This document shows positions 32,597 through 53,617 of a stretch of 64,000 nt of DNA, piece after piece. The notes below the pieces were generated by a model, which saw only the letters and a program-made list of their open reading frames with translations, was not told where the DNA came from and made no database searches. Every line of letters begins with the position of its first letter. The stretch's first letter is position 1. Origin of the DNA: Chitinophaga sp. MM2321 (lineage in GTDB: Bacteria; Bacteroidota; Bacteroidia; Chitinophagales; Chitinophagaceae). The stretch is from contig NZ_OZ035533.1 in NCBI RefSeq assembly GCF_964033635.1, positions 3,596,001-3,660,000 on the forward strand, given 5' to 3'. Made by a program: the position numbers and the translations under genes.

Positions 32597-33085
32597 ATGA
32601 AAATCAAAAAATCCATTATCACAATTGTAAGTTTCCTGTTCATCTTTATTTTTATTTATACAGCTCATTCTAAAATTGTCGATCATTATAGATTCGCCAG
32701 TACACTTTCTACCTCCCCCTTAATTGGAGAGCAATATGCTCGCCCGATTGCCTGGATGATTCCAGCAAGTGAAATCGCAATTGGATTTTTACTGATTATA
32801 CCCAGTACAAGAAAAATAGGTCTTTGGCTTTCTTTGGGTTTGATGATTGTATTTACCGCTTACTTGATCTTTATGGTGACCTCTGGACTTCCAAAAACTT
32901 GTAATTGCGGTGGTGTGATTTCCTCCATGCGTTGGACGCAGCACATCGCCTTCAATTTTGGCCTAATTTCTCTTGCTGCATGTGCATTGTATATTGATAA
33001 AATATATGAGAATATAACAAAGTGGAATAAAATAGCTATACATAAACTGACCAAAAAGCGGAATGGTCCGCATTGGAAATATTAA
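32597..33085 (+). CDS. MauE/DoxX-type redox-associated membrane protein (cassette A)
   Basis: This 162-aa protein has four transmembrane helices (about residues 7-25, 50-68, 74-95 and 116-134). It carries a C-x-C-G-G motif with Cys102 and Cys104, followed by SSMRWTQHIAFN. This is the MauE-like group in Bacteroidota. MauE in methylamine utilisation is linked to disulfide formation or maturation of a periplasmic protein, so a thiol/disulfide role at the inner membrane is probable. The next gene, 34 bases downstream, encodes a secreted two-cysteine peptide that is a natural candidate partner. A close analogue lies at 43863-44315. Confidence 0.8.
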   Translation: MKIKKSIITIVSFLFIFIFIYTAHSKIVDHYRFASTLSTSPLIGEQYARPIAWMIPASEIAIGFLLIIPSTRKIGLWLSLGLMIVFTAYLIFMVTSGLPKTCNCGGVISSMRWTQHIAFNFGLISLAACALYIDKIYENITKWNKIAIHKLTKKRNGPHWKY

Positions 33086-33119
33086 TTAACCATTTTTTAA
33101 ACCTCTAATTTTTAAACGT

Positions 33120-33449
33120 ATGAAAAGTTTAATTTTTGGCCTGGCGGTTGCCGCTGTGGCCGTGGGCATGAGCGCATTTACTGCACCTCAGGTTCAATCT
33201 AAAGCAATCTTAGCAAGTCAATTCTCATTTATCGGAGGACAAAACATTAATGATGCAACAGACCCTAGTCAGTATTCTTCAACACCACCTGTTGACTGTG
33301 GTGTTCAAGGAAAATTATGTGCAGTTACTGCAACTGATGACGGAACTGGGCACCCAAAACAAAGTGAACTAACCTCCTTAACATCTGATTTAAACACTGC
33401 TATTAGTGGAGGAAGTGTAACCAACCCTGATGTAGAAACCAAGGAGTAA
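33120..33449 (+). CDS. secreted CX6C peptide, DUF6520-like (cassette A)
   Basis: This 109-aa protein has a signal peptide (MKSLIFGLAVAAVAVGMSAFTAP) and a mature part with DATDPSQYSSTPPVDCGVQ. It has only two cysteines, Cys60 and Cys67, spaced CX6C. The N-terminal pattern and the ATDPSQYS block fit DUF6520, a family of small exported Bacteroidota proteins of unknown function. It is co-directional with the MauE-type gene. A bidirectional terminator follows, and the convergent TlpA-like gene lies on the other side. Confidence 0.7.
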   Translation: MKSLIFGLAVAAVAVGMSAFTAPQVQSKAILASQFSFIGGQNINDATDPSQYSSTPPVDCGVQGKLCAVTATDDGTGHPKQSELTSLTSDLNTAISGGSVTNPDVETKE

Positions 33450-33474
33450 AGGTTTGGAGTAAAGATTTATGCTA

Positions 33475-33520
33475 AAAGAGGGAAATTCCATGAAGTGAAA
33501 TTTATGGAGTTACCCTCTTT
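33475..33520. terminator. bidirectional terminator between convergent genes
   Basis: AAAGAGGG (33475-33482) pairs with CCCTCTTT (33513-33520), and an inner TCCAT/ATGGA stem extends the structure. It separates the CX6C peptide gene from the converging TlpA-like gene. Confidence 0.7.
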
Positions 33521-33530
33521 CAATTCAAAT

Positions 33531-34811
33531 CTAATCTATCACCAGATACTTAATCTTCCTTTTCTCTTTAATCAAATCAAAACCTTGTTTGTATAATTTA
33601 TCTTTCAAAGGTTTCTCATCCAAAATATTAATATTCCTTATCATTGAAATACTATCCCGCTTTTTCAATCTAGATTCATTCAAAAATGGGGTTTTCGAAG
33701 CCACTACTCCATAATTTATTGACATTAGATTTAGGAACATTTCCCCGGACCACGTAATAACTTCCTTATTGGTATTTTGATAATCTGGTTTGCTATTTAC
33801 ATCGTGTTTATCTACTAAAATAATACATTCTACATTGCGTTCTACCAATTTTGCTCTAATGCCATAAATCTTCTTAAAATAACGATTTAAATCTTCTTGC
33901 ATATACTGATAAGCATCTTTGTCGGTTACAGAAACTCTTTGAAAATAACTATACCAATGTTTACCTTTCCAAGCATCAAACAAATTTGGGTCTGATGGCT
34001 TTATTAGGAAGCTATAAGTTAGCGAATCCAAAATTATACGATTATTGAATATATAATCTTTTGAATTTAATGGAAGGCCCATTTGAAAAGCAACCGTATA
34101 CAAGTTTAATACGGAAGTATTTGTATACCATTTTGTTATTTCGGTTTTAGAAGTGTCCAACTGAACCCCGGCCCGAACTTCAGGGAGTCCGTTATTGAAC
34201 TTCAGTAGCGAAGAATTGTACACATATTGTTTTCCTTCCAATTTAAACAAGAATGAATCAAGTGAGTAATATTGAAAATCTTTGTGTCTAACATCTCTCT
34301 TCAAAATTAAATTCACCGGTTTCCCATTCAGAATATCATTTAAATGCTCACTAGTGTTATTGTAGCCGTTAGTAATGTTTACAACCTTTCCTTCGGGATT
34401 AATCCACACACTATGAGGAACAAAAATATATGGAAAATATTTAGCAAGGATTTTATCTGACACCACCATCATTATATTAGGCATCTTGATTTTCATTCTC
34501 TTGAAATAAGCATCTATTGCAGATTTACTGGCATTAGTGACCAAAATAATCTGGATTTTATCCCCAAATTCCTTTTGCAATAATTCTAATTTTGGGAAAG
34601 AGGCAATACAAGATCCACAGCCAATACCCCAAAAATCCAAAACAACCAATTTCCCTTCAAAATGATGTAGAGAAGATGAGGTACTATTAAAGTTATAAAT
34701 ACTGTCTAATGGTATGATGGGAACATGATCTCCTATTTTTAAAGGGTTTATATTTTGTGCCTTACAAACTATAATAGCTAGTAAAAATGAAAGGAGAATA
34801 CAATATTTCAT
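33531..34811 (-). CDS. TlpA-like exported thioredoxin-domain protein (cassette A)
   Basis: This 426-aa protein has a signal peptide (MKYCILLSFLLAIIVCKAQ) and an N-terminal thioredoxin/TlpA domain. The domain has active site Cys65-Gly-Ser-Cys68 (LDFWGIGCGSC) and the cis-proline region FVPHSVWINPEGKV. The remaining ~250 residues are a second domain seen in Sphingobacteriia TlpA-like proteins, ending GFDLIKEKRKIKYLVID, like the tail of DUF3738. It probably acts in the periplasm or on the cell surface in thiol/disulfide exchange. It is the last gene of the ECF-FecR-SusC-SusD-TlpA operon and converges with the CX6C peptide gene. Confidence 0.85.
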   Translation of the reverse strand: MKYCILLSFLLAIIVCKAQNINPLKIGDHVPIIPLDSIYNFNSTSSSLHHFEGKLVVLDFWGIGCGSCIASFPKLELLQKEFGDKIQIILVTNASKSAIDAYFKRMKIKMPNIMMVVSDKILAKYFPYIFVPHSVWINPEGKVVNITNGYNNTSEHLNDILNGKPVNLILKRDVRHKDFQYYSLDSFLFKLEGKQYVYNSSLLKFNNGLPEVRAGVQLDTSKTEITKWYTNTSVLNLYTVAFQMGLPLNSKDYIFNNRIILDSLTYSFLIKPSDPNLFDAWKGKHWYSYFQRVSVTDKDAYQYMQEDLNRYFKKIYGIRAKLVERNVECIILVDKHDVNSKPDYQNTNKEVITWSGEMFLNLMSINYGVVASKTPFLNESRLKKRDSISMIRNINILDEKPLKDKLYKQGFDLIKEKRKIKYLVID

Positions 34812-34822
34812 ATCTTTTTAAC

Positions 34823-36202
34823 TTAACGTTTATTTTGTTCAATGCCAGAAATTGAGATTACTGAATTGGGGATCAATAACTCATACCGAAGGTCATTAGG
34901 CGGAAGTGAATAAGTATCATTCTCAAATTTTCGCTCAAGTGTGATGGCAAACTTGGACACTTTGTTCAGTCGTTTAAGGTCACTCCATCTTCTATTTCTA
35001 AAGATCAATTCCTTTCTTCGCTCATTCAATATGACCATTAACACCTTCTCTGAATCGTCTAAATCAAAGTCAATGAATGTGTTTTGAAGCCAACGTTTTC
35101 TTAACAATGTATTAATGTCTATTAATGCCCTCTTGGTGTCATTGTTTCTTGCATAACATTCTGCTCGGATCAAATAAATTTCGTCCGTTGCAATTCCAGT
35201 AAAGCAGACGCTTGAACCTCCATTCGTGGTTCCAGCATAATTCCCTCTAAAACTATAGGTATTATTACCGTTATCTCCAAAAAAAAGATGTTTTCTTAAA
35301 TCGTTATTTGAATAGGATTGATACAAAGTTGAATCAACAATACATGTTGGAGGTTTCAGGGGCGGGGCACCCAGTGAGGTTGCAAAGAAAATAGTTTCTT
35401 CATTAAATGAAGCTATTGGATACTTAGTGCTTCCATCAAGAGTATTATAGTCGATTAATTCATCTCTTATTTGCAAACAGGAATCTGCATACAACCCGGA
35501 TTGGACAAAATCTGACATGCAGAGGTAGACTCTTGCTAATTCAGCAAATGCCGCAGCTTTTGTAGGCCGTGTAGAAATACTTGTAGTAAATGGAAGTAAC
35601 GATGCAGCATTCTTTAGGTCTTCAATAATTTGCAAGTAACATTCTTTCAATGACACTCTTTTTGAAGGATCATTTATATCAGCAGTTAGTTTTAGCACGA
35701 TACCTATATCTTCTGAAGCTGTGGAATTATCATAAGCTTTAGCATAGTCCTGAACCACGTTAAAATGTAAATGACCCCTAAAAAATAAGGCGCTACCTTT
35801 AATGGAGTTAAATAATAATTTATCTCCATTCTTTACCTTTTCCAGATTATCTAGAACTAGATTGCTAGTTGATATAGCTGTATAAGGAGATACCCAGTTT
35901 GCATCCCATTCGGCAACATTCTTCCAAATATAATTGTCTCGGTAACTAACATTTAAGCTTTGAAAATCATTTGCTAATAAATAATAATTATCCGCCGCGA
36001 TTTCCCCTAGAATTGGCTCAGAAAAATTCATTCGGACTGCATAATCCAAAAGCGATTGAAAATCCTGCAACGTTTTTGGGATAGCAAGACTGTTATCCGA
36101 CTTCTTATCTAGGTATTTACTACAGGAGGAACCGCAAATAACGTATATAGTAAGACATATAGTGATACATCTAAATGTTCTACTAAATTCAATCCAATTC
36201 AT
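34823..36202 (-). CDS. RagB/SusD-family outer-membrane lipoprotein (cassette A)
   Basis: This 459-aa protein has an N-terminal hydrophobic signal followed by cysteines (CGSSCSKYLDKKSD), of which one would be the lipidated residue. Typical SusD blocks are present: LQDFQSLLDYA, then IKGSALFFRGHLHFNVVQDYAKAYDN, and near the end LIRAECYARNNDTKRALIDINTLLRKR and ILNERRKELIFRNRRWSDLKR. SusD proteins form the lid of the SusC channel and bind the ligand, which may be a peptide or glycan. Stop-start gaps to its neighbours are short. Confidence 0.9.
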   Translation of the reverse strand: MNWIEFSRTFRCITICLTIYVICGSSCSKYLDKKSDNSLAIPKTLQDFQSLLDYAVRMNFSEPILGEIAADNYYLLANDFQSLNVSYRDNYIWKNVAEWDANWVSPYTAISTSNLVLDNLEKVKNGDKLLFNSIKGSALFFRGHLHFNVVQDYAKAYDNSTASEDIGIVLKLTADINDPSKRVSLKECYLQIIEDLKNAASLLPFTTSISTRPTKAAAFAELARVYLCMSDFVQSGLYADSCLQIRDELIDYNTLDGSTKYPIASFNEETIFFATSLGAPPLKPPTCIVDSTLYQSYSNNDLRKHLFFGDNGNNTYSFRGNYAGTTNGGSSVCFTGIATDEIYLIRAECYARNNDTKRALIDINTLLRKRWLQNTFIDFDLDDSEKVLMVILNERRKELIFRNRRWSDLKRLNKVSKFAITLERKFENDTYSLPPNDLRYELLIPNSVISISGIEQNKR

Positions 36203-36226
36203 AGAAATATATTTTGAACAGGTTTA

Positions 36227-39200
36227 TTAGAATGAACCTCGAACTCCAATTGCATAAGATCTGGAATAAGGGATTTTATTGTTTATATAATCGGGATCAA
36301 TTTGACCTTTGCTTTCTTTCCAAATTATTCCAATATTATTGGCATAAAGTGAAACTTCCAGATTTTTAACCAGACAATGTGATTGAGATAAATTTTTAAA
36401 ATTATAAGCCAACCTAATGTCCTGTAATCTGATATGGTCACCTTTTTCTACGTTAGGCTCAGCGTTTGCATAAAAAAGGTCACGGTTGCTATTGGCCGGG
36501 TACGTCATAGAGGGGACAGAAGTTGTTGCTTCATCACCAGGATTCTGCCACCTGTCTTTATAGTCAGTGTGTCCCTTCCATTGAGTGTACAGAGAATTGT
36601 ATTCTATAGTTGGCCTTCGAATGAAGTATTTAAATTTATAGGTGATATTAACTGACAATTGAAATCCTTTCCAGTTAATGTCATTTCTTATTGAACCAAA
36701 ATAGAGGGGAATAGCCGATCCGTGGTAAACGAGATTTTGAACCGAATCCGCCATGAGACTGCTATACTCTTTACTTACAGCTCCATTTAAATACCCTTGT
36801 GGATCCCCATTCTTAGGATCCAACCCTGCCCATTTATAGGAGAACATTGGATATAGTACCTTTCCTTCTAAGGGATTTAGGTTAAATCCATTCCCTAAAA
36901 AGGAATTGGCTCTTATGCTGGTATTGAAATATTTTGCAACAACCGATTTGTTCGAGCTGTACAGGGCACTGGTCCGCCATTTAAAATTAGGTGTCTGAAT
37001 AATTTTAAAAGTGAGTTGAATATCAATACCTTTACCTTTTATATCAGCGGCATTCATAGTAACCGAATTGAATCCTGATGTTGGGTCTATAGGTACTGGA
37101 CTTAAAAGATCTGTGGAGTTTTTTGTATAATATTCAACACTTCCAGTTATTAGGTCATCTTTCAACGAAAAATCTAAACCTACGTTAAAGGTACCAACCT
37201 TTTCCCAGCGCAATTCTGAATTGGGCGGGGTATAAGGAGCTGCGAAGATTAAATTAGTTATTCTATTTGGGGTGTAATATCGAATTGTCGCCAAAGAAGT
37301 CGCTGTTGGATTGATATTGCCCTGATAGCCAAAGGTGGATCGGAGCTTTAAAAAGGAGATCATTTTGGTTTTGAAAAAATCCTCATTTGAAATTATCCAA
37401 CTCAGACCACTTGACCATAAAGGGACCCCTTTTTTATTCGTCTCCACACCAAATAAATTGGATTCATCTTTCCGCGCGCTCCCGGACATTATATATTTTT
37501 CCTTGTAGGTATATGCAGCATTGACAAAATAAGATCTATAACGGTTGGTTACTTGAGAGAAATCTGCTTTATTTGGAACTACAGTAGTTCCACTTAAATT
37601 ATCAAAAACTGGATATGAATTCTTGAAATCCACATTTTGGGATGTACTGTTTTCCTCATTATATCCATAGGTACGAAAGCTATTGCCTTGGAAATTGGCT
37701 TCGCTAATTTCCATTCCTGCAATTGCTGAAATTCGATTCTTCTGATTCCATACTTTATCGTAATTCAATTGCCCGCGCAGGTTGTTGCTGACTAGATTCC
37801 TTGTATCCAAATCAAGTATTCCCCCCAATGGTATCCCATAGATTACTTCGCTACCCTTTAACTGCGAAAAGCGATTTATTAAATCACGTGCAAAAAAAGT
37901 ATTGGTATTGTAATAGGATCTGTATTGAGTTTTCTGATTTTCGAATTGATATTTAATACCGACACTTAACGAAGGTAAAAGCTGATAGGTATTTCCCAGA
38001 TTCAGTACAAAATCCTGATTTTTCGTGGATTTATCTGATTCTTGCATCTCTGTCAATGGATTGTAATTCCAATTTAATAGCCTTCCATTGCCAGCAGTAT
38101 CCAAATAAGCAGTTCTGTAATTTTTTGGTAGGTTGTATGTATTTCCATAACCCAGTTCTGCATATGGATATATATAGGTTCCTCTAGCATCACTAAGAGA
38201 TAAGGAATTGTAATCACCAATGCTGTTGTTATCAGATTTACTTTGCGTATAAGCAATACCTATAACTGTCTCCATATTTTTCAAAATCCGAAATGTAGTA
38301 TTGTTTTGTAAGGTTATGCGGTCAAAGTCATTTTCTTTCAATCTGGAGAGATTTCGATCATAGCCCCCAGAAAAGTGATATTTTATCTGGTTGTTCCCCC
38401 CCGAAATCTGTATAGAATTTTGCTGGTTTAAAGGGTTGCGGTAAATATACTTTGAATAATCTCTCCTGAGATCCTTATTCCTTAGTTCATCTATTTGTTG
38501 CGATGCTGCTTCATGTGTCAGTTTACCATTCCGCTGTTTAAATAGAATTTCATAAACAGGAGAGAATATGGGCCGGTTGTTTTTTGCTGTATCAGAAAAT
38601 TGAAAACCGTTATTGAACAATTCCTGTTCCACATCGATGAAATCTGAGGATGTCATTTGGGGAAAGTAGTTTAAATCAGGCTTTTCTGATATGGTCAAAT
38701 TAGAAGCAAAACTTAAAGTCAAAGGCTTATTATACTGCCCTTTCTTCGTGGTAATCACTATTACTCCATTTGCAGACCTTGCGCCCCAAATGGAAGCGGA
38801 AGCTGCATCTTTAAGGATGGTAATGCTTTCGACATCATTTGGGTTGATGTTATTCAAATCTCCGTTATATGGAAAATTATCAACCACAATAAGTGGTGCA
38901 GATATTCCATAAGTTAATGTGCTTACACCCCTAATTGTAATTCGGTCATCTGCTGCGCGCTTATCAAATGCCATTCCACTGACCTTGCCTTCCAGGCGGC
39001 TAAGCACATCTGTACTAATTTCCCTATTGTACTCTGTATTATCAAGAAAAATGAAGCTTCCCGTCGCCCTTTCTTTGGGTAATATTTGGTACCCCGTAGA
39101 CACTACTTCATGTCCTTCTAATTTCATTTCTTCTTGTTCAAGTTCCACTTCCAGTGTTTCGTTAAGTTCAAGCGGCAGCTTGATCCTTTTTGAGTGGAAA

Positions 39201-39790
39201 CCCACAAAGGATACTATGAGAAAACCGTTAAGTCTGCTGCCACTTAAATATTTAAACCGGCCATTTTCATCCGTAACCGTTCCTATTGTGGATCCTTCAA
39301 TCTTCACGGACGCTCCAGGTAGAGGAGCGCCGCGATAGGTGACCCTGCCAGAGATCTGGCTGGCCGAATCTTTGTTTGAATCTAAACTGAAATCTATGGG
39401 TTGGTTTTTGCTTTCTTTGGAATTAGGATGAGGCTGCACAATTAATCGCTGGCCATTTAACGTATAGCCAAAAGGTTGCCCTGCAAAAATCTTTTTGAAG
39501 ACTGATGCCGCCGCTGCATTTTTAACCTCGATGCTTACAGGCTTCGCTTTGCCAGTTAATTTCTTATCGTACAATATTCGGTAGCTGCTCTGCTGTTCTA
39601 TGGCATCAAATATTTTTTCTACCGGCGCATTCCGGAAAGAAAGGGTTAACCCTTTAGTCTGTTGTTCTGTAATGTTGCCCTGTGCAGATAGTCCCCCCTG
39701 CAATAGCATAAATACCAAGAAATTGATCACTATTGGGAGGGCAATGCGATGCCGAGTCCCTCGATTAAGGGAACCTTTGTGTTTCATCAT
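36227..39790 (-). CDS. SusC/RagA-family TonB-dependent transporter with STN domain (cassette A)
   Basis: This 1187-aa outer-membrane protein has, in order, a signal peptide, an STN (secretin/TonB short N-terminal) domain at about 45-115 (LTLSFRNAPVEKIFDAIEQQSSY), a CarboxypepD_reg-like domain at about 145-225 and a plug (to GARSANGVIVITTKKG near 350). A 22-strand-type barrel ends in SYAIGVRGSF. The STN domain allows signalling to the FecR anti-sigma encoded upstream, so it acts as sensor and importer. The ligand is unknown. The paralog in cassette B is at 48230-51586. Confidence 0.92.
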   Translation of the reverse strand: MMKHKGSLNRGTRHRIALPIVINFLVFMLLQGGLSAQGNITEQQTKGLTLSFRNAPVEKIFDAIEQQSSYRILYDKKLTGKAKPVSIEVKNAAAASVFKKIFAGQPFGYTLNGQRLIVQPHPNSKESKNQPIDFSLDSNKDSASQISGRVTYRGAPLPGASVKIEGSTIGTVTDENGRFKYLSGSRLNGFLIVSFVGFHSKRIKLPLELNETLEVELEQEEMKLEGHEVVSTGYQILPKERATGSFIFLDNTEYNREISTDVLSRLEGKVSGMAFDKRAADDRITIRGVSTLTYGISAPLIVVDNFPYNGDLNNINPNDVESITILKDAASASIWGARSANGVIVITTKKGQYNKPLTLSFASNLTISEKPDLNYFPQMTSSDFIDVEQELFNNGFQFSDTAKNNRPIFSPVYEILFKQRNGKLTHEAASQQIDELRNKDLRRDYSKYIYRNPLNQQNSIQISGGNNQIKYHFSGGYDRNLSRLKENDFDRITLQNNTTFRILKNMETVIGIAYTQSKSDNNSIGDYNSLSLSDARGTYIYPYAELGYGNTYNLPKNYRTAYLDTAGNGRLLNWNYNPLTEMQESDKSTKNQDFVLNLGNTYQLLPSLSVGIKYQFENQKTQYRSYYNTNTFFARDLINRFSQLKGSEVIYGIPLGGILDLDTRNLVSNNLRGQLNYDKVWNQKNRISAIAGMEISEANFQGNSFRTYGYNEENSTSQNVDFKNSYPVFDNLSGTTVVPNKADFSQVTNRYRSYFVNAAYTYKEKYIMSGSARKDESNLFGVETNKKGVPLWSSGLSWIISNEDFFKTKMISFLKLRSTFGYQGNINPTATSLATIRYYTPNRITNLIFAAPYTPPNSELRWEKVGTFNVGLDFSLKDDLITGSVEYYTKNSTDLLSPVPIDPTSGFNSVTMNAADIKGKGIDIQLTFKIIQTPNFKWRTSALYSSNKSVVAKYFNTSIRANSFLGNGFNLNPLEGKVLYPMFSYKWAGLDPKNGDPQGYLNGAVSKEYSSLMADSVQNLVYHGSAIPLYFGSIRNDINWKGFQLSVNITYKFKYFIRRPTIEYNSLYTQWKGHTDYKDRWQNPGDEATTSVPSMTYPANSNRDLFYANAEPNVEKGDHIRLQDIRLAYNFKNLSQSHCLVKNLEVSLYANNIGIIWKESKGQIDPDYINNKIPYSRSYAIGVRGSF

Positions 39791-45391: not shown

Positions 45392-45393
45392 AT

Positions 45394-46755
45394 CTAATTA
45401 CTATCACTAACGACAATAACCTTCATCTGTTTTTCTGTATCAACCAGGTCAAATCCCAGTTGATTTAATGCCGACTTGATTTGGCTTAAATTCAAGTGTT
45501 GGAAATCGAAGGAAAGATCTAATTTGAAATCTACATTTGTGTCGTCTAATATAGGCGTTCTTGGGCTACCCTCGTCTATTTGAGCAATATTGGTCGTAAG
45601 TTGTAAATGTCTTGAGATAAAATCTTTAACAGTGATATTTGCTACGTGTATTGAATCGTCCACTTTAGCCCAACTGGAATGTCCAGTTTTGTTCTTCAAA
45701 GATTTTATTCTTTGACGGTTTTTTACAACCAGGGACAAAACCTTGCATACCTTAGTTTCAACTGTTGAAGTCAGTCCAAATGACCTTTCCAATTCTTCTC
45801 CTAATGCCATTTTTGTTTTTTCTAGTGATGATTCTCTTACCAAAGTGTATAGACTATAGGCATATAAATTTTTTATCCCATTTGCTATTAAGTCGTCAGG
45901 AGAAAACCTGTTTGTTTTAAGGACTATTCCATCATAGAATCCATCCCCATAATACCATTCTATTCTCCCGGTGTTAACAAACAAAAAAAGATGCTGAAGG
46001 TCAAAGCCCATACATTCGGACAAATTAGAGGGTTCAGCTCGCGGATTTCTGAAATATCCTGTATAGTAATAATTTGGCATTTTGTCATTCCATCTGGTCA
46101 GCAAAGAGCGGGATATAAACGCTGTATCGTAGCCCCCATTTGCTTGTAAACCGGAGGTTAGTAATGGCAATACTCTCACATAATTTGAGTCTGCATGTTT
46201 CTCGTGACTCGAATAACCTTTTTCAAGTTCTTCAGGCACCATACCGGAAATTATTTTTGCTAAAGCTATACTATCCAAATGATAAGTCTTCACTGCTATT
46301 TTTCCAACAGGATCTATGACAAGAATTAGCGGAAAAGCCGTAATGTCAAAAATACGGTTCACGGTTGTATCAAAGGCCACTGTTAAATCTAAATTATTCA
46401 ATTTCGCTTGGTTGTAATATAATGCTTTAGTCCGGATAACGTCTTTGGGGTCATTCGGATTGCCACTAGCTGCCACCATTATAATTTTAGCTTTCCCAGA
46501 AAATTGTTTGGTAAGTAAATTCATTCTAGGAAAACTTGCAATGCAGCCACTACAGAACCTCGACCAAAAGTCCAATACCAGCCATTGACCCTTATAGTCT
46601 TTTATACTAGCTTTAGAAGTTGGGTTATTTATTATCTCAGTAAATAGATGATTGTTAACATAGTCACCAACTTTTGGAAAATAGATCTTATTAGCTTGAC
46701 CATATACTTCCATCATTGTGAGGATTAGAATAGCTATTATAATTATTTTTCTCAT
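45394..46755 (-). CDS. TlpA-like exported thioredoxin-domain protein (cassette B)
   Basis: This 453-aa protein has a signal peptide (MRKIIIIAILILTMMEVYGQ), an active site Cys68-Ser-Gly-Cys71 (LDFWSRFCSGC) and a cis-proline region (TAFPLILVIDPVG). A C-terminal domain ends QLGFDLVDTEKQMKVIVVSDS, similar to the tail of the cassette A protein and to DUF3738. A thiol/disulfide role in the periplasm is inferred. It is last in its operon after susD and converges with the CX6C peptide genes, as in cassette A. Confidence 0.85.
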   Translation of the reverse strand: MRKIIIIAILILTMMEVYGQANKIYFPKVGDYVNNHLFTEIINNPTSKASIKDYKGQWLVLDFWSRFCSGCIASFPRMNLLTKQFSGKAKIIMVAASGNPNDPKDVIRTKALYYNQAKLNNLDLTVAFDTTVNRIFDITAFPLILVIDPVGKIAVKTYHLDSIALAKIISGMVPEELEKGYSSHEKHADSNYVRVLPLLTSGLQANGGYDTAFISRSLLTRWNDKMPNYYYTGYFRNPRAEPSNLSECMGFDLQHLFLFVNTGRIEWYYGDGFYDGIVLKTNRFSPDDLIANGIKNLYAYSLYTLVRESSLEKTKMALGEELERSFGLTSTVETKVCKVLSLVVKNRQRIKSLKNKTGHSSWAKVDDSIHVANITVKDFISRHLQLTTNIAQIDEGSPRTPILDDTNVDFKLDLSFDFQHLNLSQIKSALNQLGFDLVDTEKQMKVIVVSDSN

Positions 46756-46779: not shown

Positions 46780-48210
46780 TTAATTATATCCTTTATTCTG
46801 TATCAAATTTGGATCATTTTTCAATTCTGTAAGCGGTAGTGGAAGTAACTGTTTCTCACTTTTCCATATACCGCCCTTATCAGGGGTTACACTACCCATT
46901 ACGTTTTCAATTGATTTTGTGCGCTTTAAGTCCAGCCACCGATGGCCCCATTCGGTAAAAAGTTCAATTTGTCTTTCATGTAGTATTGAAGTAAGCAGTT
47001 CTGCTTTAGTAATGTTAGGTTTCGTATCTGCTATTAATGGCAAATTAGCTCGGCCTCTGATCACATCCAGGTCTGCTATTGCACCCGGGAGGTTACCTAA
47101 CTGTGCACGTGCTTCTGCGCGAATCAGATATTGTTCAGCCAAACGCAATACCACTGAATACTCAGAAATAGAAGTGGCATTTACTACTTTGTACTTAGCA
47201 GGATAGAAATAGTCTGTTCCAGCACTTGAAAATATTCCGATCCAGTTTGTTTTTCTCAAATCATTTGGTTCGAATGAATCAAGTAGACTCTTACTTATCG
47301 AAGAGCAATTAAAAAGCGAGTAAGTTGCTGGTACATCGGTCAAAACAAATCCTTTTCCTTCGGAAGTATTCATTAAAGATCCTTCAGTATAATCCGCAGG
47401 ACTAAGTTGCCAGATTGCTTCTTTACTGTTTACTAGAAATACTTCGCTCAGTGGTAACTCAGTAGTATATAAATTCGTCTCTTCTATAATGGAACTAGCC
47501 TCTGCTTCTGCCTCGGAATATTTTCCCATGAATAAATACGTCCTTGCTAGTAGGGCCATTGCAGCATATTTATTAGGTCGAAGTCTTTGTGTGGAAACGA
47601 TGTATTTTGCATCCAGGTAATCTTCGCTTAAATCCTGTTTTGCAAGCAGTAAGTCAGCTACAATTTGATTATAAATTGATGACTGTGCGTCCCGCTTAGC
47701 GTTACCGTTTATTAAATAGTCAGTGGAAGTTATTAGGGGTACATCTCCGTAGAGGTTCACGAGATAAAAATACCAGAAAGACCGAATGAAAAGTGCTTCA
47801 GCTATAAGTTGCTTTTTGACATTTGGTGATAGCGTTTGAGAAGCGTTACAACCCTCATACACTGCATTAGCCTGATAGATATACTGGTATGCACTTAGCC
47901 ATATAGAATTAGTTGGGGCGTCAAGAGCATTCAAATTGTTCGTATAGATTTGATCCAGTGTATTCCAGTAGTTTTTGAGCTCATCCGCGGAAAGTCCCAA
48001 ATACAAACCCATTTGGTACGGTGATGGCTCTTTTGTTCCCATCATTTGAGGATAAATATTTAAAAGCGCAGCCGTTGCACTCTCATTATTGCCAAAAACT
48101 TTAGCAGTAACCAACTGCGTTTTTGGTGCTTCAACTTCAACAAATTTCCTACAACCAGCCAAGCTGAACGTAAGTATAAATATAGTTATTGATATGTAAT
48201 TTAATCTCAT
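46780..48210 (-). CDS. RagB/SusD-family outer-membrane lipoprotein (cassette B)
   Basis: This 476-aa protein has a lipobox ending LAGC (Cys20) and typical SusD blocks: AEALFIRSFWYFYLVNLYGDVPLITS, AMALLARTYLFMGKYSEAEAEAS, RLAEQYLIRAEARAQLGN and ILHERQIELFTEWGHRWLDLKRT. It is the surface lid of the SusC channel encoded 20 bases upstream. It is only distantly like the cassette A SusD, so the two loci may bind different ligands. Confidence 0.93.
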   Translation of the reverse strand: MRLNYISITIFILTFSLAGCRKFVEVEAPKTQLVTAKVFGNNESATAALLNIYPQMMGTKEPSPYQMGLYLGLSADELKNYWNTLDQIYTNNLNALDAPTNSIWLSAYQYIYQANAVYEGCNASQTLSPNVKKQLIAEALFIRSFWYFYLVNLYGDVPLITSTDYLINGNAKRDAQSSIYNQIVADLLLAKQDLSEDYLDAKYIVSTQRLRPNKYAAMALLARTYLFMGKYSEAEAEASSIIEETNLYTTELPLSEVFLVNSKEAIWQLSPADYTEGSLMNTSEGKGFVLTDVPATYSLFNCSSISKSLLDSFEPNDLRKTNWIGIFSSAGTDYFYPAKYKVVNATSISEYSVVLRLAEQYLIRAEARAQLGNLPGAIADLDVIRGRANLPLIADTKPNITKAELLTSILHERQIELFTEWGHRWLDLKRTKSIENVMGSVTPDKGGIWKSEKQLLPLPLTELKNDPNLIQNKGYN

Positions 48211-48229: not shown

Positions 48230-51200
48230 TTAAAAAGTCAAATTTAAACCTGCTGTAATGATACGTAAAGAAGGTAGCGTAAGGGCCGATGCCACTCCTT
48301 GAGTTTCCGGGTCTAAGCCTTTAAACTTTGTAAAAGTCACCAGGTTTTGGCCCTGCAAGTAGACTTTTATATGCTTAGCGCATGCCTTTTGACTCCAGCG
48401 TTCTGGAATCTCCCAAGCGAAGTAGATGTTTTTTAGGCGTATAAAGGATGCATCAGTGATCAAGGCATCACTTTGCGTATATAACGAATTCTCGTTTGAA
48501 ATGAATGTCGTATATTTTTGGAATTGTGATCCCTCTTCACCTGCTTTCTCCCACCGATTTAAAACATAAGTTGGCTGGTTTACATTATACCTTCCCGGTG
48601 TTCCATTTTGGATAGTATAATCATAGCCCGTTTGTTTGACGAACTGGATGGAAAAATCTAAAGTAAATCCATTGTATGTAAAGTTATTGGTAATTGCACC
48701 GAACCATTTTTGCCCAACGAAATACGGTGCAATATCTGATGAGGACGTAATTTCGCCATCTTTATTTAGGTCATCAAACGTATATAGACCCGTATTTTTA
48801 TCCACTCCAGTAGACTTATAAAGAAACATAATAAATAATGGCTGACCAACAACATATCTTTGAGCGTAGCTTGAACTGGTTAAATTAGGGTATGAAATCA
48901 GCTTATTTTTAGGTACGCTAATGTTGCCGGAAGTACTCCAGGAAAAACCACTGTGGGAAAGGTTCTGTGAGGTTATCTCTATTTCCAAGCCTTTGTTTTC
49001 TATAACCGCAGGCAGGTTTGCTCTGACATTGGAGAAGCCAGTTATTCCTGGCAAGTTATATCCAACTAGCTGGTTCCCGGTGCGGTTACGGTACCAATCT
49101 ATATTGAAGAGCAATTTATTATCTAAGAATCCAGTTTCCAAGGCAGCCTCAATTTTATTGATGGTTTCCCAGCCATAAAGTGGATTTGTTAGGGATTTTG
49201 GGTCAAGGGTAGACACCCCCATATATGTCGTTCCATTTGACAGGTATGAACTCAGGTATTCATAATCATCGATTTGGTCATTTCCGGTTTTGCCAATACT
49301 ACCTCTGAGTTTTCCATAACTGATGAAGGAGGGCAACCTAAGAAAGTTCTCCTTGGAAAATATCCATGCGGCGCCAATCGCACCAAAATTCCCAAATTGT
49401 CTGTCTGGCCCGAAACGACTACTACCATCCCTTCTTCCTGTCAAGTTTAAAACATATTTTTCATCGTAATTATATCCAATTCTGCCATAGATCGCATTGT
49501 AGTGATAAAGAGAATAAATGGACGAAGATCCATTTAAAGCAGATGCAGCCGAAATGTTCTCAATTAAATCATCGGACGAAAATCCCACATATCGTTGCTG
49601 GACTCCTTCCTGCTCCTTTTGTTGCCACGTTGCACCAACTAAAGCCTCTAATGTATTTTTGCCGAATACTCTTCTATAATTTATCTGGGGGTCAATAATC
49701 CAGCTGCCAACTGAATTGTGTGCAAGGTCATTCAACCGATTGGTTGGAAGAATCCCTGACCTGGGCATTATAGAAGTGGCTGGCTGTATGGTCGACTCGT
49801 CTAAGCGCATCTTTGTATAACCAAAATTACTTTTGAGCTGCAAACCATTTATGATGTTGTAGGATAGAGTTATATTTGAGATTAGATTTTCTGTTTTAGC
49901 GGTCAATTTTTCCTCAATCCACGCATAAGGATTACTATAGAAATTTTTCAACCAATTAATAGTGCCATCTGCATTATAAGGATCAGGTGAATTCGGTGCA
50001 ATTAATATGTATTTAGTCAGATCGATTATCGGTAATCTGTTATTTGAATTTGAATAGGAACTACTAAAATCGGCATGAAATTTTTCATTTTCTGAGGTGT
50101 GATTTATATTCACAAGCATTGATCCTATACGGTTATTATATGGCCCTGGGTACACTGTTGTTTCCTTGCGGTATGAACCGCTCAACAGAAACTGCGTATT
50201 TTTATTTCCACCGGAAATGGATCCTTGGGCATTTAGGAAGTTAGCAGTACCACCGATGAATTTTTCCTGCCAATCTGTATATTTATTTTGATCGTATAGG
50301 GTAAGATCTGCATTTGAACTTGATACAGTTGTTGTTGAAGTGGGTATGCTTAAGCCGTCATTTAAATATGCCTCCTTGCGCATTTCGAGATATTGTGGCG
50401 TATTCATTGCCTTTATTTTCTTCGCTACTTCACCAATGCCATTTGATACATTGACATCCAATCTGGTTTGGCCTGATTTACCTTTTTTTGTCGTAATAAG
50501 TATAACCCCATTGGCACCCCTTGAACCGTATATAGCTGTCGCATCTGCATCTTTAAGCACATCTATACTTTCTATATCTTCAGGACGCAAGCTCATAAAG
50601 GGGCTTAAATTAGTAAGGGTAGCATTTGTATTCTGAGAAAGGTTGCTGGCATTAAATGGGACACCATCAACGATATAAAATGGGTCGTTACCATTTGCAA
50701 TGCTGTTTTGACCACGCAGTCTGACCTGCAAACCCGCTCCTGGAACTCCGGAAGTTTGAAATAGATATAAACCAGGGATTTTACCTTGCAGAGCAAGTAA
50801 CGGGTCGCTTACCGGTTGCTTGCTAATTTCCTCAGCCTTTAAAGTACTGACACTACCAGTATTCAAAATCTTAGTCGTCGAATAGTATCCTTTTATAACT
50901 GCTTCATCAAGTTGATTTAATAATTCCTTTAATATAATATTGATTACAGTCCTTCCTTTAATAGGTATATCTTCATTGGTATAACCAACATAACTGAATT
51001 GAAGTACACTATTAGATTCAGCTGTTATGCTGTAATCCCCATCCTCATTTGTAGTAGTTCCCGTTTGCGAATCTTTAATTCGGATGTTAACACCAATCAA
51101 TGGTTTATTCTCATTGTCTGTTACTTTCCCTTTAATGATGATTTGTTTTTCCTCATCAAGCTTTGATTCAGGAGTAAATTTGTCGTCTTTTTTTTTGTCA

Positions 51201-51586
51201 GACTTGGGTTGAATGATAATAATTTTATTCTCTTTAGAGTAGCTGAAGGGTTGGTCTGCAAAGATCTTTTCCAGCGATTCTTCAATGCTGGAATTTTGAA
51301 GTTCGATGGTGACCGGCCTGGCATCTTTGAGATAGGAGCTTTTGAATAGAAACTGATACCCGGTTTGTTGCCTGATCGATTTCATCACATCACGTAAGGG
51401 TGCTTTTTTGAGGGAAAGGGTAATGTCCTGCGAATAGGCCGCAGCGGAAACCCTCAATGAAATGGCCAGAAGTATCAGAAACATTTTCATGGCTATAATG
51501 AATTGAATTTGTCTTTGGTTGAGTACAGGCATTTTCCCGCTGAAAAAAGAAAATACGCCTGCATCGGTATGAATAGTATTATTCAT
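48230..51586 (-). CDS. SusC/RagA-family TonB-dependent transporter with STN domain (cassette B)
   Basis: This 1118-aa outer-membrane protein has a signal segment, an STN domain at about 57-125 (ITLSLKKAPLRDVMKSIRQQTGYQFL), a CarboxypepD_reg-like domain at about 150-220 (IKGKVTDNENKPLIGVNI) and a plug ending GSRGANGVILITTKKG. The barrel ends ITAGLNLTF. The STN domain links it to the FecR/ECF pair upstream. The open frame reads on upstream of the transmembrane signal; the first ATG (51586) is used, though one 93 bases further in (at MKMFLILLA) may be the real start. Confidence 0.92.
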   Translation of the reverse strand: MNNTIHTDAGVFSFFSGKMPVLNQRQIQFIIAMKMFLILLAISLRVSAAAYSQDITLSLKKAPLRDVMKSIRQQTGYQFLFKSSYLKDARPVTIELQNSSIEESLEKIFADQPFSYSKENKIIIIQPKSDKKKDDKFTPESKLDEEKQIIIKGKVTDNENKPLIGVNIRIKDSQTGTTTNEDGDYSITAESNSVLQFSYVGYTNEDIPIKGRTVINIILKELLNQLDEAVIKGYYSTTKILNTGSVSTLKAEEISKQPVSDPLLALQGKIPGLYLFQTSGVPGAGLQVRLRGQNSIANGNDPFYIVDGVPFNASNLSQNTNATLTNLSPFMSLRPEDIESIDVLKDADATAIYGSRGANGVILITTKKGKSGQTRLDVNVSNGIGEVAKKIKAMNTPQYLEMRKEAYLNDGLSIPTSTTTVSSSNADLTLYDQNKYTDWQEKFIGGTANFLNAQGSISGGNKNTQFLLSGSYRKETTVYPGPYNNRIGSMLVNINHTSENEKFHADFSSSYSNSNNRLPIIDLTKYILIAPNSPDPYNADGTINWLKNFYSNPYAWIEEKLTAKTENLISNITLSYNIINGLQLKSNFGYTKMRLDESTIQPATSIMPRSGILPTNRLNDLAHNSVGSWIIDPQINYRRVFGKNTLEALVGATWQQKEQEGVQQRYVGFSSDDLIENISAASALNGSSSIYSLYHYNAIYGRIGYNYDEKYVLNLTGRRDGSSRFGPDRQFGNFGAIGAAWIFSKENFLRLPSFISYGKLRGSIGKTGNDQIDDYEYLSSYLSNGTTYMGVSTLDPKSLTNPLYGWETINKIEAALETGFLDNKLLFNIDWYRNRTGNQLVGYNLPGITGFSNVRANLPAVIENKGLEIEITSQNLSHSGFSWSTSGNISVPKNKLISYPNLTSSSYAQRYVVGQPLFIMFLYKSTGVDKNTGLYTFDDLNKDGEITSSSDIAPYFVGQKWFGAITNNFTYNGFTLDFSIQFVKQTGYDYTIQNGTPGRYNVNQPTYVLNRWEKAGEEGSQFQKYTTFISNENSLYTQSDALITDASFIRLKNIYFAWEIPERWSQKACAKHIKVYLQGQNLVTFTKFKGLDPETQGVASALTLPSLRIITAGLNLTF

Positions 51587-51650
51587 ATCTTTGGTTAGTT
51601 TAGGTAATTAAAATTGTTGATTCATCTCGACATGCAAAAGACCTGACTAC

Positions 51651-51677
51651 AACCGGGGTGTTAGTAGCACTCCGGTT
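51651..51677. promoter_or_regulatory. intercistronic hairpin between FecR and SusC genes
   Basis: AACCGG (51651-51656) pairs with CCGGTT (51672-51677), with an inner GGTG/CACT extension making about 10 bp. Read on the plus strand it is followed by TTTTTTAG. In the minus-strand mRNA it could reduce readthrough or protect the susC message. Confidence 0.45.
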
Positions 51678-51721
51678 TTTTAGTCTTTTACAATGATTGT
51701 GTTTGTGTTGTTAGTTTTGTA

Positions 51722-52879
51722 CTAGTTGATCATGATCCTCCTTCCTTCCATCTTTAATTTGATGCTGCTGCTGATTTCAATTGACCTCAAAACTTCGGAT
51801 AGCGGAATCTTACGGGAGATTTCACCATCGAAATTTATTTGCGGCATATTGCTGTAATCAACCTCAACGTTGTACCATCGGCTAATTTCTCTTAACACTT
51901 GCTGCAATGGGGTTTGGACGAAAACGAATAGCCCGTCCTTCCAGGCAATGATATCGTCTGGATTGACTTGCTTAACTAGGATTTCATGTGATGTAACTAT
52001 CGCTTGTTTTCCGGGAGAGAGGTTTGTGTGTGCCCCGGTTTTGGGTAAGGAAACTACGACGCTTCCTTCAGCGAGCGTAGTTTGCATGTTTTCAGATTTA
52101 GGATAGCAGCATACATTGAAATGTGTGCCGGTTACGGTTACCAATTGTTCATTACTCTGAACTGAGAAGGGTTTTGTAGGATTCTTCGTTACTTCGAAAT
52201 AGGCTTCTCCAATCAGTTCTACCTTCCTTTCTTTTAGTTTGGTAAAGGATTGGGGAAAAGTGATTTTTGAATCGGCATTCAGCCAGACATGTGTACCGTC
52301 TTGCAATACAATTTCATATTGGCCTCCTTTAGGCGTACTGATCGTATTCAATTGTTCTCCAGTTGTCTCATCGGATTTGGTTATGGTAGATTTGGTTATG
52401 GTATAGATAACCTTTCCATTTTTAGATTGTTGAATGCTGAGACCTGCTAATTTGGAGAGTTCTCCCTGATGGAGACTGTCCAAGGTGATTTGCTGTCCAT
52501 TTGCAAGAGTGAGGATAGCTTTATTACTGGCAGGCCCTATATCCGTTGCAGCGAGGTTTGGTACATCGGGTAGAATTACCGGATTCAGAAACCACCAAAC
52601 CGTGCCGGCTGCTAAAACAAATCCCAGCACGGCGGCGGCTATCTTTAACGGGGTAAATGGTATAGTCCTTTTGTTTTTTCTATGAATAAGACGGGCATCA
52701 TGATCTACAAGTGCATTCCAGATGCTTTCATTAATCTGCTCAAAATCAGGCTGACCTTCCGGCATGGATTCCGACTTTGCGATCTCCAGGTACCAGCTCT
52801 CGACCAGTAGCTGCTCTTCCGGTGTGCAGGTTCCATTACGGTAACGTGCGATTAATGCTAGTGCTTCTTGTTTTTCCAT
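51722..52879 (-). CDS. FecR-family anti-sigma factor (cassette B)
   Basis: This 385-aa protein has a cytoplasmic N-terminus (about 1-75), a transmembrane helix at about 78-97 and a FecR domain (NTISTPKGGQYEIVLQDGTHVWLNADSKI). A DUF4974 C-terminal domain follows (LQQVLREISRWYNVEVDYS). It belongs with the sigma gene at 53039-53617 and the downstream SusC. The layout matches cassette A. Confidence 0.93.
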   Translation of the reverse strand: MEKQEALALIARYRNGTCTPEEQLLVESWYLEIAKSESMPEGQPDFEQINESIWNALVDHDARLIHRKNKRTIPFTPLKIAAAVLGFVLAAGTVWWFLNPVILPDVPNLAATDIGPASNKAILTLANGQQITLDSLHQGELSKLAGLSIQQSKNGKVIYTITKSTITKSDETTGEQLNTISTPKGGQYEIVLQDGTHVWLNADSKITFPQSFTKLKERKVELIGEAYFEVTKNPTKPFSVQSNEQLVTVTGTHFNVCCYPKSENMQTTLAEGSVVVSLPKTGAHTNLSPGKQAIVTSHEILVKQVNPDDIIAWKDGLFVFVQTPLQQVLREISRWYNVEVDYSNMPQINFDGEISRKIPLSEVLRSIEISSSIKLKMEGRRIMIN

Positions 52880-53038
52880 TGCTAATCTATCGGTTGTAGG
52901 TATGCCCCATAACTTAAATACAGGTGACCAGGTGATTTAGGGTAGTCCATTCTTGTTTTTTTTAAAAAAACCTGTGGACAACCTGCCCAATAACACCTTA
53001 AGTATTTGTAAATCAGATTCTTGAATTAATTTATTTTT

Positions 53039-53617
53039 TTAGAGAAACAGGGAAATCAGGAGCGTTAATTTGCTTCGAAGGATTTGCATCGCACGCTCTA
53101 TTTGCTTTTTAATGGTTTGCTCACTGGTTCCGGTTTCATTGGATATCTCTCGATAGCTGAGTCTTTGTTTTTTTGCCAATTCAAAGGCCCGTCGCATTTT
53201 AGGGGGAAGAAGAGAAATTTCTGTTTCTATTCTTTCCTGAAGTTGACGATCGCTATCCTCTTCCCGTTCTAAGATTTCTTCACGGCTAAGTTCATGCTCA
53301 TTAAGGTTTACGTGATGCCAGAAATGTGCATACCTGTCGATTACCTTCTCATGATCAAATGCGTTCATGATTTTGTTTCTCAGACTGGTATAGAGATAAG
53401 GCCAGAGCGGTTTTTCAGAATCAATCCGATCCGATTTATGGAGTAGCATCATAAATACATCCTGTACGGTATCTTTAGCCTGCTCATCGCATTTGAGCAA
53501 ACGCCGGGCATGAAGAAATAGCATTCTCCAATATCTGTTGTAAAGTACCTCGAATGCCTTTCCGTCGCCTTGGTTGAATGCGGAAAGCAATTCACTGTCA
53601 GTTAGTGCATCAAGCAT
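53039..53617 (-). CDS. ECF RNA polymerase sigma factor (cassette B)
   Basis: This 192-aa protein has sigma-70 region 2 (FEVLYNRYWRMLFLHARRLLKCDEQAKDTVQDVFMMLL, about 22-60) and region 4 (LPPKMRRAFELAKKQRLSYREISNETGTSEQTIKKQI, about 137-173). It is the first gene of the cassette B operon, 159 bases before the FecR gene. It probably drives its own SusCD operon after release from FecR. Confidence 0.92.
   Translation of the reverse strand: MLDALTDSELLSAFNQGDGKAFEVLYNRYWRMLFLHARRLLKCDEQAKDTVQDVFMMLLHKSDRIDSEKPLWPYLYTSLRNKIMNAFDHEKVIDRYAHFWHHVNLNEHELSREEILEREEDSDRQLQERIETEISLLPPKMRRAFELAKKQRLSYREISNETGTSEQTIKKQIERAMQILRSKLTLLISLFL

Follow-up and report, generated by a model that had tools for sequence, protein, structure and literature searches.

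Why should an operon for a MauE-type membrane protein and small, predicted exported cysteine peptides be read head-on against a regulated outer-membrane importer operon, and why twice, side by side, in one Chitinophaga genome? The window, that is, the whole stretch of 64,000 nucleotides from Chitinophaga sp. MM2321 that was analysed, holds two such cassettes, A (32597-41716) and B (43863-53617). A check of the open reading frames finds all of them at these coordinates, and a Pfam scan of seven proteins from cassette A and nine from cassette B confirms the families of the shared layout that the preliminary description had noticed. On the plus strand a CxCGG MauE-type membrane protein is followed by small cysteine-bearing peptides, one gene in A and three in B; on the minus strand genes for ECF sigma factor, FecR, STN-containing SusC, SusD and a TlpA-like thioredoxin point at them.

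Cassette A
32597..33085, plus strand: MauE-type membrane protein with CxCGG (PF07291, 113.5 bits, cut-off 27)
33120..33449, plus strand: predicted exported peptide of 109 aa with a signal-like start and a CX6C motif, CGVQGKLC (open reading frame)
33531..34811, minus strand: TlpA-like thioredoxin (CGSC) with an extra C-terminal region (PF08534, 30.5 bits; PF13905, 27.9 bits)
34823..36202, minus strand: SusD (PF14322, 116 bits), of the first cassette clade
36227..39790, minus strand: SusC with STN domain (STN, CarboxypepD_reg_2, Plug)
39839..41056, minus strand: FecR anti-sigma factor (PF04773, 61 bits)
41174..41716, minus strand: ECF sigma factor (Sigma70_r2 and r4_2)

Cassette B
43111..43443, plus strand: open reading frame with an AraC-type DNA-binding domain (HTH_18, 50.9 bits), 5' of the MauE gene
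43863..44315, plus strand: MauE-type protein with CxCGG (PF07291, 105 bits, cut-off 27)
44421..44681, plus strand: predicted exported peptide 1, CX6C
44771..45031, plus strand: predicted exported peptide 2, CX6C; likely ATG at 44771, inside a longer open reading frame from 44720
45131..45391, plus strand: predicted exported peptide 3, CX6C; likely ATG at 45131, inside a longer open reading frame from 45041; weak PF20130 (DUF6520) match
45394..46755, minus strand: TlpA-like thioredoxin (CSGC; PF00578, 35 bits)
46780..48210, minus strand: SusD (PF07980, 98.4 bits), grouping with those of loci L007 and L008 in the second cassette clade
48230..51586, minus strand: SusC with STN domain (STN, CarboxypepD_reg_2, Plug)
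51722..52879, minus strand: FecR (PF04773, 66.2 bits)
53039..53617, minus strand: ECF sigma factor (PF08281, 42.7 bits; PF04542, 41.6 bits)

In cassette B the stop of the TlpA-like gene lies 2 bases from that of peptide 3, and the C-terminal part of its product weakly matches TIGR03435 (18.6 bits, cut-off 40). The AraC-type reading frame is likely the regulator of the plus-strand unit. Scans for sigma-70 promoter-like sequences (39 against 46.8 in shuffles) and terminator-like sequences (12 against 9.5) gave counts within the range of the shuffles. Could one cassette be a recent copy of the other? By blastp, counterpart proteins of A and B are 24-33 % identical over the aligned stretch only, and the cassette A peptide has no significant match among those of cassette B. 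Therefore, as the divergence of the parts had already suggested, the pair did not come from a recent duplication, which is also ruled out by the separate clades of the two SusDs.

Genes for TraM, TraJ and TraG are located at 12.0-22.6 kb of the window, and those for a NikA/MobC-like protein, a relaxase and coupling proteins at about 66.6-70.3 kb in window coordinates. The cassettes lie between these transfer and mobilisation genes, and because they are flanked in this way they probably ride an integrative and conjugative element (ICE), although the ends of the mobile element were not found. The preliminary description, in which the system was carried by the ICE, is thus right about location, while the cassette type itself is not specific to the ICE: two copies elsewhere in the host genome and dozens of other loci share the layout, and ICE-only cargo was rejected as a general explanation for this reason.

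How widely, then, is the pairing kept? The two further strong MauE genes of the host genome each face a SusCD-thioredoxin-S9 peptidase operon, and the layout is found at all four strong single-domain MauE genes of this genome, in which a SusD occurs about once per 51 kb. A survey of 47 other genomes of Chitinophagaceae gave 110 MauE loci, 100 of them with enough downstream sequence. Eighty of the 100 are convergent with a SusCD-type operon, against one of 156 control genes taken from random stretches (Fisher about 6e-46) and, in a second control, one of 429 oppositely read genes of the same loci; the layout rule was failed by 20 of the 100, and passed by 29 of 39 if one MauE per genome is counted. 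These neighbourhood statistics bear out the earlier view of a kept arrangement, and the control genes rule out chance adjacency, the outcome that it had named as refuting. A predicted exported peptide with cysteine is present in 79 of the 80 convergent loci (73 by rule and six more on a second look), the remaining one being L166, whose predicted exported peptide lacks cysteine. TlpA is encoded on the minus strand in 63 of the 80 and missing from that strand within 10 kb in 17, and some loci have an S9 or M16 peptidase gene in the minus operon. A set of named loci extends the pairing to Pedobacter, Flavobacterium, Leeuwenhoekiella, Chryseobacterium and Cyclobacteriaceae: 25 of the 32 with room follow the layout rule, and three more have a peptidase-sized gene in that slot, which is M16 in the one of the three that was tested. 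Many Bacteroidota thus keep an operon for a predicted exported cysteine peptide beside a regulated outer-membrane importer, usually facing it.

What are the peptides? Their export is predicted from a custom signal rule and from inspection by eye, which shows hydrophobic leader signals about 20 residues long. The cysteines are spaced by six residues in all four window peptides (the motifs in cassette B are CITGGSTC, CIIGGIGC and CITGGTGC), and in an alignment of 28 peptides, a set chosen beforehand for at least two cysteines, two cysteine positions are invariant. The bodies are highly variable across loci, with tandem arrays of six or seven labelled peptides at L082, L109 and L160; a structure model of the body (mean pLDDT 60) was too weak to use. 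DUF6520 (PF20130), a family for which we know of no function, is matched by 17 of the 28 cassette peptides with E of at most 0.01 (lowest 2.8e-19). In 296 Bacteroidota genomes this family has 21 matches, 19 of which lie directly downstream of MauE. The window peptides are below the PF20130 cut-off of 25.4 bits, the best being peptide 3 of cassette B with 19.1 bits; since peptides of relatives in the same gene position match PF20130, those of the window are likely distant relatives of this family. The NVEALA family (PF14055) was also considered and set aside, since none of the 28 peptides matches it at E 0.01 and only one of the 296 genomes has it. Neither DUF6520 nor NVEALA is mentioned in the literature searched.

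As for MauE, CxCGG is invariant in the four host-genome copies and present in 98 of the 110 relatives (12 are without it). Its upstream neighbour belongs to an AraC-like similarity group in 40 of the 110, and a small TlpA on the plus strand co-occurs with an S9 peptidase on the minus strand (Fisher 5.5e-8). Some relatives have a membrane-anchored propeller beside MauE or fused to it; by fold it is most similar to DUF4221 and NHL propellers, and no solved relative was found by sequence at E 1.

Do the two halves vary together? Most SusDs of cassettes group in two nearly pure clades, that of A in one and that of B in the other. On the SusD tree the cassette label changes 10 times, against 41.6 times when shuffled, and none of 500 shuffles was as low; a cut of the SusD distances into two clusters split them 71 to 1 and was set aside. 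The mature peptide tracks SusC in 517 of 1169 comparisons against 438 in shuffles (44 % vs 37 %) and SusD in 497 of 1169 against 440, in both cases with none of 300 shuffles as high, and the effect is modest. The signal part of the peptide tracks neither SusC nor SusD, and MauE similarity tracks SusC weakly and SusD not at all (450 of 1169, z 0.3). Mantel rho is 0.24 for MauE-SusC, 0.22 for MauE-SusD, 0.13 for MauE-peptide, and 0.14 for both peptide-SusC and peptide-SusD, for each pair with none of 499 permutations as high, while SusC-SusD gives 0.85 for comparison with these cross-half values. Strict block co-inheritance of the whole cassette was rejected: distances across the halves agree weakly, though above every permutation.

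What might such a pair of operons do? In our judgement there is an even chance that each cassette is one functional unit, in which the peptide would be the cognate ligand of SusCD: exported, sensed via STN, FecR and ECF sigma factor, imported, reduced and cleaved. The unit would be built from two operons that in most cases face each other. From the plus operon, which frequently has an AraC-type gene next to it, would come MauE and one or more short peptides, each starting with a Sec-like signal. Together with the TlpA-like thioredoxin, MauE would probably form or rearrange the peptide disulfide; such a role of MauE has been speculated for methylamine dehydrogenase. The minus operon would provide the outer-membrane SusCD pair with STN, FecR, ECF sigma factor and thioredoxin, and in some loci a peptidase. 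The mature peptide would leave the periplasm and be bound by the facing SusCD, binding would trigger STN-FecR-ECF signalling, and the peptide would probably then be imported, reduced by thioredoxin and cleaved, a small disulfide cargo which the S9 or M16 peptidase and the thioredoxin of the import operon would suit. Among the scanned cassette proteins Pfam recognised no carbohydrate-active enzyme beside SusCD. The peptide may be a pheromone that the cell makes for itself, or a carrier, encoded in the genome, by which a nutrient or metal is fetched. Co-conservation, architecture, the two main SusD lineages and the covariation of peptide and SusCD are what the analysis shows; disulfide formation, passage through the outer membrane, binding, signalling, import and purpose are inferred. 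STN, FecR and ECF sigma factor accompany SusCD, and therefore the uptake or sensing role put forward in the preliminary description may be retained as putative; the redox link between the parts that it also proposed is plausible from the families present. More tentatively, and with less than even confidence, we suggest that Bacteroidota have here a widespread means of self-recognition or self-retrieval, in which a variable disulfide-closed peptide is matched to a SusCD-FecR-ECF set; with up to nine complete pairs per genome and two main receptor lineages, it would form a repertoire of private peptide channels, used for pheromones or nutrient-fetching carriers.

Several results speak against the cognate-ligand proposal: the cassettes hold no recognised outer-membrane exporter for the peptide, some convergent loci have no TlpA on the minus strand, a fifth of the MauE loci do not follow the layout rule, some MauE relatives are without CxCGG, the peptide of L166 has no cysteine, MauE does not track SusD, and the peptide-SusC effect is modest. 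Other readings have to be weighed as well. The peptide might stay in the cell as a periplasmic partner of SusCD (a gate, a plug partner, or a ligand of STN or FecR), with MauE setting its disulfide and SusCD signalling reporting periplasmic redox. The peptides have a signal-like start, yet Pfam finds no outer-membrane exporter for them in either cassette; redox proteins occur in both halves, and the tracking of SusC and SusD by the mature peptide is equally in its favour. However, variable bodies and long tandem arrays would be odd for a housekeeping subunit, and the peptidases of some facing operons are left unexplained, so that we hold this reading to be unlikely, if worth keeping in mind. 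The link between the halves might otherwise be redox alone: MauE would serve the TlpA of the SusCD operon, like a MauE/MauD pair, for import of an external disulfide substrate, and the peptide would be an accessory of MauE. Both MauE and MauD are known for methylamine dehydrogenase maturation (PMC7794033), and TlpA stands on the minus strand at most convergent loci, but the cysteine peptide is the more constant of the two, and it is the mature peptide that tracks both SusC and SusD while MauE does not track SusD; this makes the reading quite unlikely.

More doubtful still is that the peptides are antimicrobial toxins, with SusCD as the receptor of rivals' versions or as a self-protecting importer that clears the toxin. 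Short, variable cysteine peptides with their own thiol oxidoreductase do resemble bacteroidetocins in logic (PMC6671954), and peptidase and thioredoxin could inactivate such a peptide. Against this, no GG leader is seen by eye, no ABC transporter or immunity gene was recognised in the cassettes, and PADLOC gave no match for MauE and TlpA of cassette A, the sole cassette proteins scanned there; by the same result a defence system was dropped as a candidate. Finally, ordinary nutrient SusCD operons might stand beside MauE by happenstance, as such a genome has more than a hundred SusCD pairs: the host genome has 134 SusD-like_3 matches. The control genes refute this in its chance form, the near-pure SusD clades also speak against it, and we regard it as highly improbable.

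To our knowledge, the ligand of most SusCD pairs is not readable from sequence. If the neighbouring peptide is the ligand, it becomes readable from the genome and the pairing can be tested directly, and DUF6520 peptides and MauE of Bacteroidota would gain a function. SusCD would then also be part of a loop in which a gene-encoded peptide serves signalling or retrieval; the literature searched describes no such loop, and no description of the MauE-peptide-SusCD pairing system was found there either. Even a periplasmic peptide would be noteworthy as a conserved partner of signalling SusCDs.

Which known systems come closest? Cell-surface signalling loci consist of an ECF sigma factor, FecR and an STN-bearing TonB-dependent transducer, SusCD versions included, and by Pfam all three adjoin on one strand in both minus operons, the STN domain being present in both window SusCs, the two checked. 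The cassettes add a conserved opposite MauE operon and a predicted exported ribosomal peptide, a partner not described for such loci in the parts of the literature searched. They resemble the mau cluster in having MauE, a TlpA-like thioredoxin (MauD is thioredoxin-like) and a small exported cysteine protein, with a propeller in some relatives, and the comparison can be extended to MauA and MauB; however, none of the cassette proteins scanned with Pfam matches a MauA or MauB family, and the propeller of the relatives is closest in fold to DUF4221 and NHL. In candidate RiPP clusters found in Streptomyces by decRiPPter, MauE (in one family also MauD) stands beside a predicted precursor peptide, but these are actinobacterial, and the part of the source consulted mentions no TonB or SusCD partner (PMC7794033). 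Bacteroidetocins, class IIf bacteriocins, are likewise short cysteine peptides of Bacteroidota with a dedicated thiol oxidoreductase, but they have a GG leader of 15-16 aa, mature peptides of 42-48 aa and an ABC exporter that contains a leader peptidase domain (PMC6671954). The leaders in the cassettes instead look Sec-type, a SusCD operon faces the peptides, and Pfam gives no ABC or C39 match in either cassette. Methanobactin loci combine a peptide precursor, the TonB transporter MbnT and the sigma/anti-sigma pair MbnI/MbnR, so that a self-made peptide, TonB uptake and sigma/anti-sigma control make them alike in how they would work. Methanobactin and other MNIO peptide loci also have an MNIO-type peptide-modifying enzyme, and no peptide-modifying enzyme of this or another type was matched by Pfam among the scanned cassette proteins. 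Where methanobactin has a single TonB receptor the cassettes have SusCD, and in RagAB-like systems it is a SusCD pair that binds and imports peptide.

The convergent pairing of a MauE-peptide operon on the plus strand with a SusCD operon on the minus strand is real and strongly conserved in Bacteroidota, and from it we infer a function. In the open-access papers searched, preprints excluded, we found no description of such a pairing. In Chitinophaga sp. MM2321, whose window lies on a single contig of 6.78 Mb, it occurs four times, twice in the window (cassettes A and B) and twice elsewhere (L007 and L008, each examined as a 20-kb stretch).

Convergent cassettes of Chitinophaga sp. MM2321
Cassette A, window 32597-41716: plus strand, MauE and one 109-aa peptide; minus strand, TlpA, SusD, SusC, FecR and ECF
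Cassette B, window 43863-53617: plus strand, AraC-type DNA-binding ORF (43111-43443, ahead of that range), MauE and three peptides; minus strand, TlpA, SusD, SusC, FecR and ECF
L007: MauE, small TlpA-like protein (CPYC), two-Cys peptide; facing operon, S9 peptidase, thioredoxin, SusD, SusC
L008: one peptide, MauE, small TlpA, inserted pair of transposase-like ORFs, two further peptides; facing operon, S9 peptidase, thioredoxin, SusD, SusC

ORFs and Pfam matches place both window cassettes, with all parts listed in the preliminary description, where it had put them. All four window peptides (one of A, three of B) carry CX6C, both SusCs carry an STN domain, and in cassette B only 2 bases separate the stop of the third peptide from that of TlpA. 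The parts were said to be diverged, and indeed identity between A and B is 24-33 %. In cassette B, a perfect 15-bp inverted repeat with a 5-base loop (44685-44719), possibly a terminator or an operator, separates the first peptide from the second, and directly upstream of the ECF gene of this cassette lies a second ECF sigma gene (53808-54377, minus strand) with no FecR or SusC of its own adjoining.

Own-genome MauE matches number six, five of them over the Pfam curated threshold, and the strong single-domain copies are those of A, B, L007 and L008; the layout is absent at the remaining matches, L009 and L010 (72.5 and 22.4 bits). SusD-like_3 has 134 matches in this genome, about one per 51 kb. 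At L007, the opposite strand carries ECF and a short match to FecR past SusC, while FecR and ECF of the L008 cassette come next, in the stretch L168. Several other features of these loci may be recorded here. The HTH-only ORFs at window 43111-43443, which is AraC-type, and at L008 8744-9091 are near-identical by eye, each upstream of an otherwise diverged cassette. The transposase-like pair of L008 (10860-11986, IS3-like by eye) splits the plus operon between small TlpA and two peptides. L007 has two extra exported two-Cys peptides similar to its cassette peptide (4399-5247, minus strand), upstream of a same-strand ECF-FecR-SusC operon, and between its AraC gene and MauE an 894-aa protein (7264-9948, plus strand) with an N-terminus of nucleotide-binding look by eye and no Pfam match.

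Is this layout kept among relatives? An alignment of the four own MauE rows matched 49 of 117 Chitinophagaceae genomes, giving 116 matches including the four own, and 110 of the 112 others were fetched with flanks of up to 9.75 kb either way. Of the two omitted, one was a short partial match, with no other in that genome, and one was the second fragment of a split gene. ORF calling was mechanical, and labels came from profiles of the window and own cassettes instead of from Pfam. A locus was counted as convergent if TlpA, SusD or S9 was the first minus-strand gene of appreciable length to follow MauE and a SusD lay within the first four. By this rule 83 of 110 loci, spread over 39 of 47 genomes, are convergent, and, if one MauE is taken per genome, 29 of 39. 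That the arrangement is a kept one, as had been proposed, is borne out by 80 of the 100 loci whose downstream sequence reaches 6 kb or more, versus 1 of 156 control genes from 20 random stretches of ten of these genomes, even though these control genes all had at least 9 kb of room, which biased the comparison in their favour. With an exported peptide of at least two Cys also demanded, the counts are 73 of 100 and 0; among 429 oppositely read genes in the same loci, one satisfies the rule, with a peptide. Some of the 20 failing loci hold a variant, such as same-strand FecR-SusC-SusD (L111) or an intervening gene (L109, L163), while others, L062, L156 and L157 among them, have no SusCD in the fetched stretch. 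Minus-strand TlpA is found in 63 of the 80 convergent loci, and 45 of the 100 loci with room have FecR or ECF on that strand no more than 10 kb away, many stretches ending sooner.

More widely, a scan of named genomes gave 37 loci, of which five (L025, L027, L039, L053, L055) were excluded before counting for less than 3 kb downstream or an incomplete MauE. The same rule holds for 25 of the remaining 32, in genera and groups including Chitinophaga, Niastella, Pedobacter, Mucilaginibacter, Flavobacterium, Chryseobacterium and Cyclobacteriaceae. In three further loci, from Leeuwenhoekiella, SusD is preceded by a gene of some 940 aa, which in L033, the only one of the three tested, is an M16 peptidase; L030 has FecR and ECF with SusCD not labelled, and L043 has convergent SusD-SusC behind a 171-aa ORF. 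Two Pedobacter loci (L044, L050) keep S9 and TlpA genes upstream on the same strand, so the genes can stay linked even where their orientation has changed. A phylum-wide draw found such MauE in 31 of 296 genomes. Thus, the system is widespread yet far from universal.

The labelled peptides number 96 in 76 convergent loci. After residue 18, 65 have two Cys (CX6C in 25, CX7C in 33) and 22 have four, a count that is not blind because the label itself demanded two Cys. On a relaxed second look at the seven convergent loci without a labelled peptide, six had a Cys-bearing exported peptide and that of L166 was Cys-free; Cys-bearing exported peptides therefore occur in 79 of 80 convergent loci. Among 28 peptides taken from the window and from named loci, 17 match DUF6520 with an E of 0.01 or lower (2.8e-19 for the best), but those of the window fall under the family cut-off. 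A separate search of a 296-genome phylum draw gave 21 DUF6520 matches in 17 genomes, of which 19 matches lie 0.2-1.5 kb downstream of MauE on the same strand, the place lists being compared by eye; at the two exceptions (contigs G402:C205 and G361:C23) no MauE is listed. An AlphaFold peptide model is confident only in the signal helix. Elsewhere in the phylum, at G348:C2:22059-24002, a DUF4221 propeller match is flanked by two NVEALA peptide matches, a possible parallel case of peptide and propeller paired.

In a FastTree tree built from 85 cassette SusDs and 51 background ones, the cassette label needs 10 changes, against 41.6 after shuffling (none of 500 shuffles was as low). The cassette SusDs split into one group of 41 and another of 44. 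Both groups take in five background rows apiece, mostly from MauE loci themselves; this purity may be overstated because the background was chosen for convenience (the 30 best PF07980 matches of the own genome and 21 from fetched loci). SusD of A belongs to the first group and that of B to the second, together with L007 and L008, whose SusDs are exactly its nearest own-genome paralogues (373 and 363 bits; next 108), while A has no close one (best L008, 66 bits).

Do peptide and receptor vary together? For 72 complete loci, using the first peptide of each, we asked in every other genome with at least two cassettes whether one part and another pick the same best match, and cassettes were shuffled 300 times within genomes. 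Mature peptide agrees with SusC in 517 of 1169 cases (438 in shuffles) and with SusD in 497 (440), and no shuffle was as high for either; an earlier whole-peptide run is consistent with this. The signal agrees with SusC in 466 (61 shuffles as high) and with SusD in 426 (231), MauE with SusC in 519 (4) and with SusD in 450 (113), and MauE with mature peptide in 479 (9) and with signal in 514 (4). The effect is small, but it lies in the mature sequence, which is what contact of that sequence with SusCD would predict. Accessory parts are also associated: in 87 loci, plus-strand small TlpA and minus-strand S9 occur together in 6, small TlpA alone in 2, and S9 in none of the 79 without small TlpA. 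Peptides with at least four Cys go with small TlpA (p 0.0005), S9 (p 0.007) and a missing large TlpA (p 0.0005).

The suggestion that an ICE carries the cassettes is probable: TraM, TraJ and TraG lie at window 12.0-22.6 kb, and NikA/MobC-like, relaxase and coupling proteins at 2615-6257 of L171, a further own-genome stretch, or about window 66.6-70.3 kb. Because conjugation genes thus stand on both sides, A and B probably travel with it. The TraG ORF (21268-22632, minus strand) stops after 45 of 413 P-loop domain positions, so that the gene may be broken or may continue in another frame. An FRG-domain protein (59353-60180, minus strand), encoded in the DNA that separates the cassettes from the mobilisation genes, matches PDC-S15, a candidate anti-phage defence group.

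How might such a cassette work? Its parts suggest that the peptide would be exported via Sec, oxidised by MauE with a TlpA-like partner and recognised by SusCD, that a signal would then pass through STN-FecR-ECF, and that the peptide might finally be imported, reduced and cleaved. Of this scheme, the signal-like start of the peptide and the signalling parts are read from sequence and family knowledge, and the other steps are inferred. The weakest point is how it would get across the outer membrane. As to known systems, PMC7794033 calls a disulfide-forming role of MauE speculation. PMC6671954 describes Bacteroides as lacking the general machinery and makes the case that Cys peptides there have a thiol oxidoreductase of their own.
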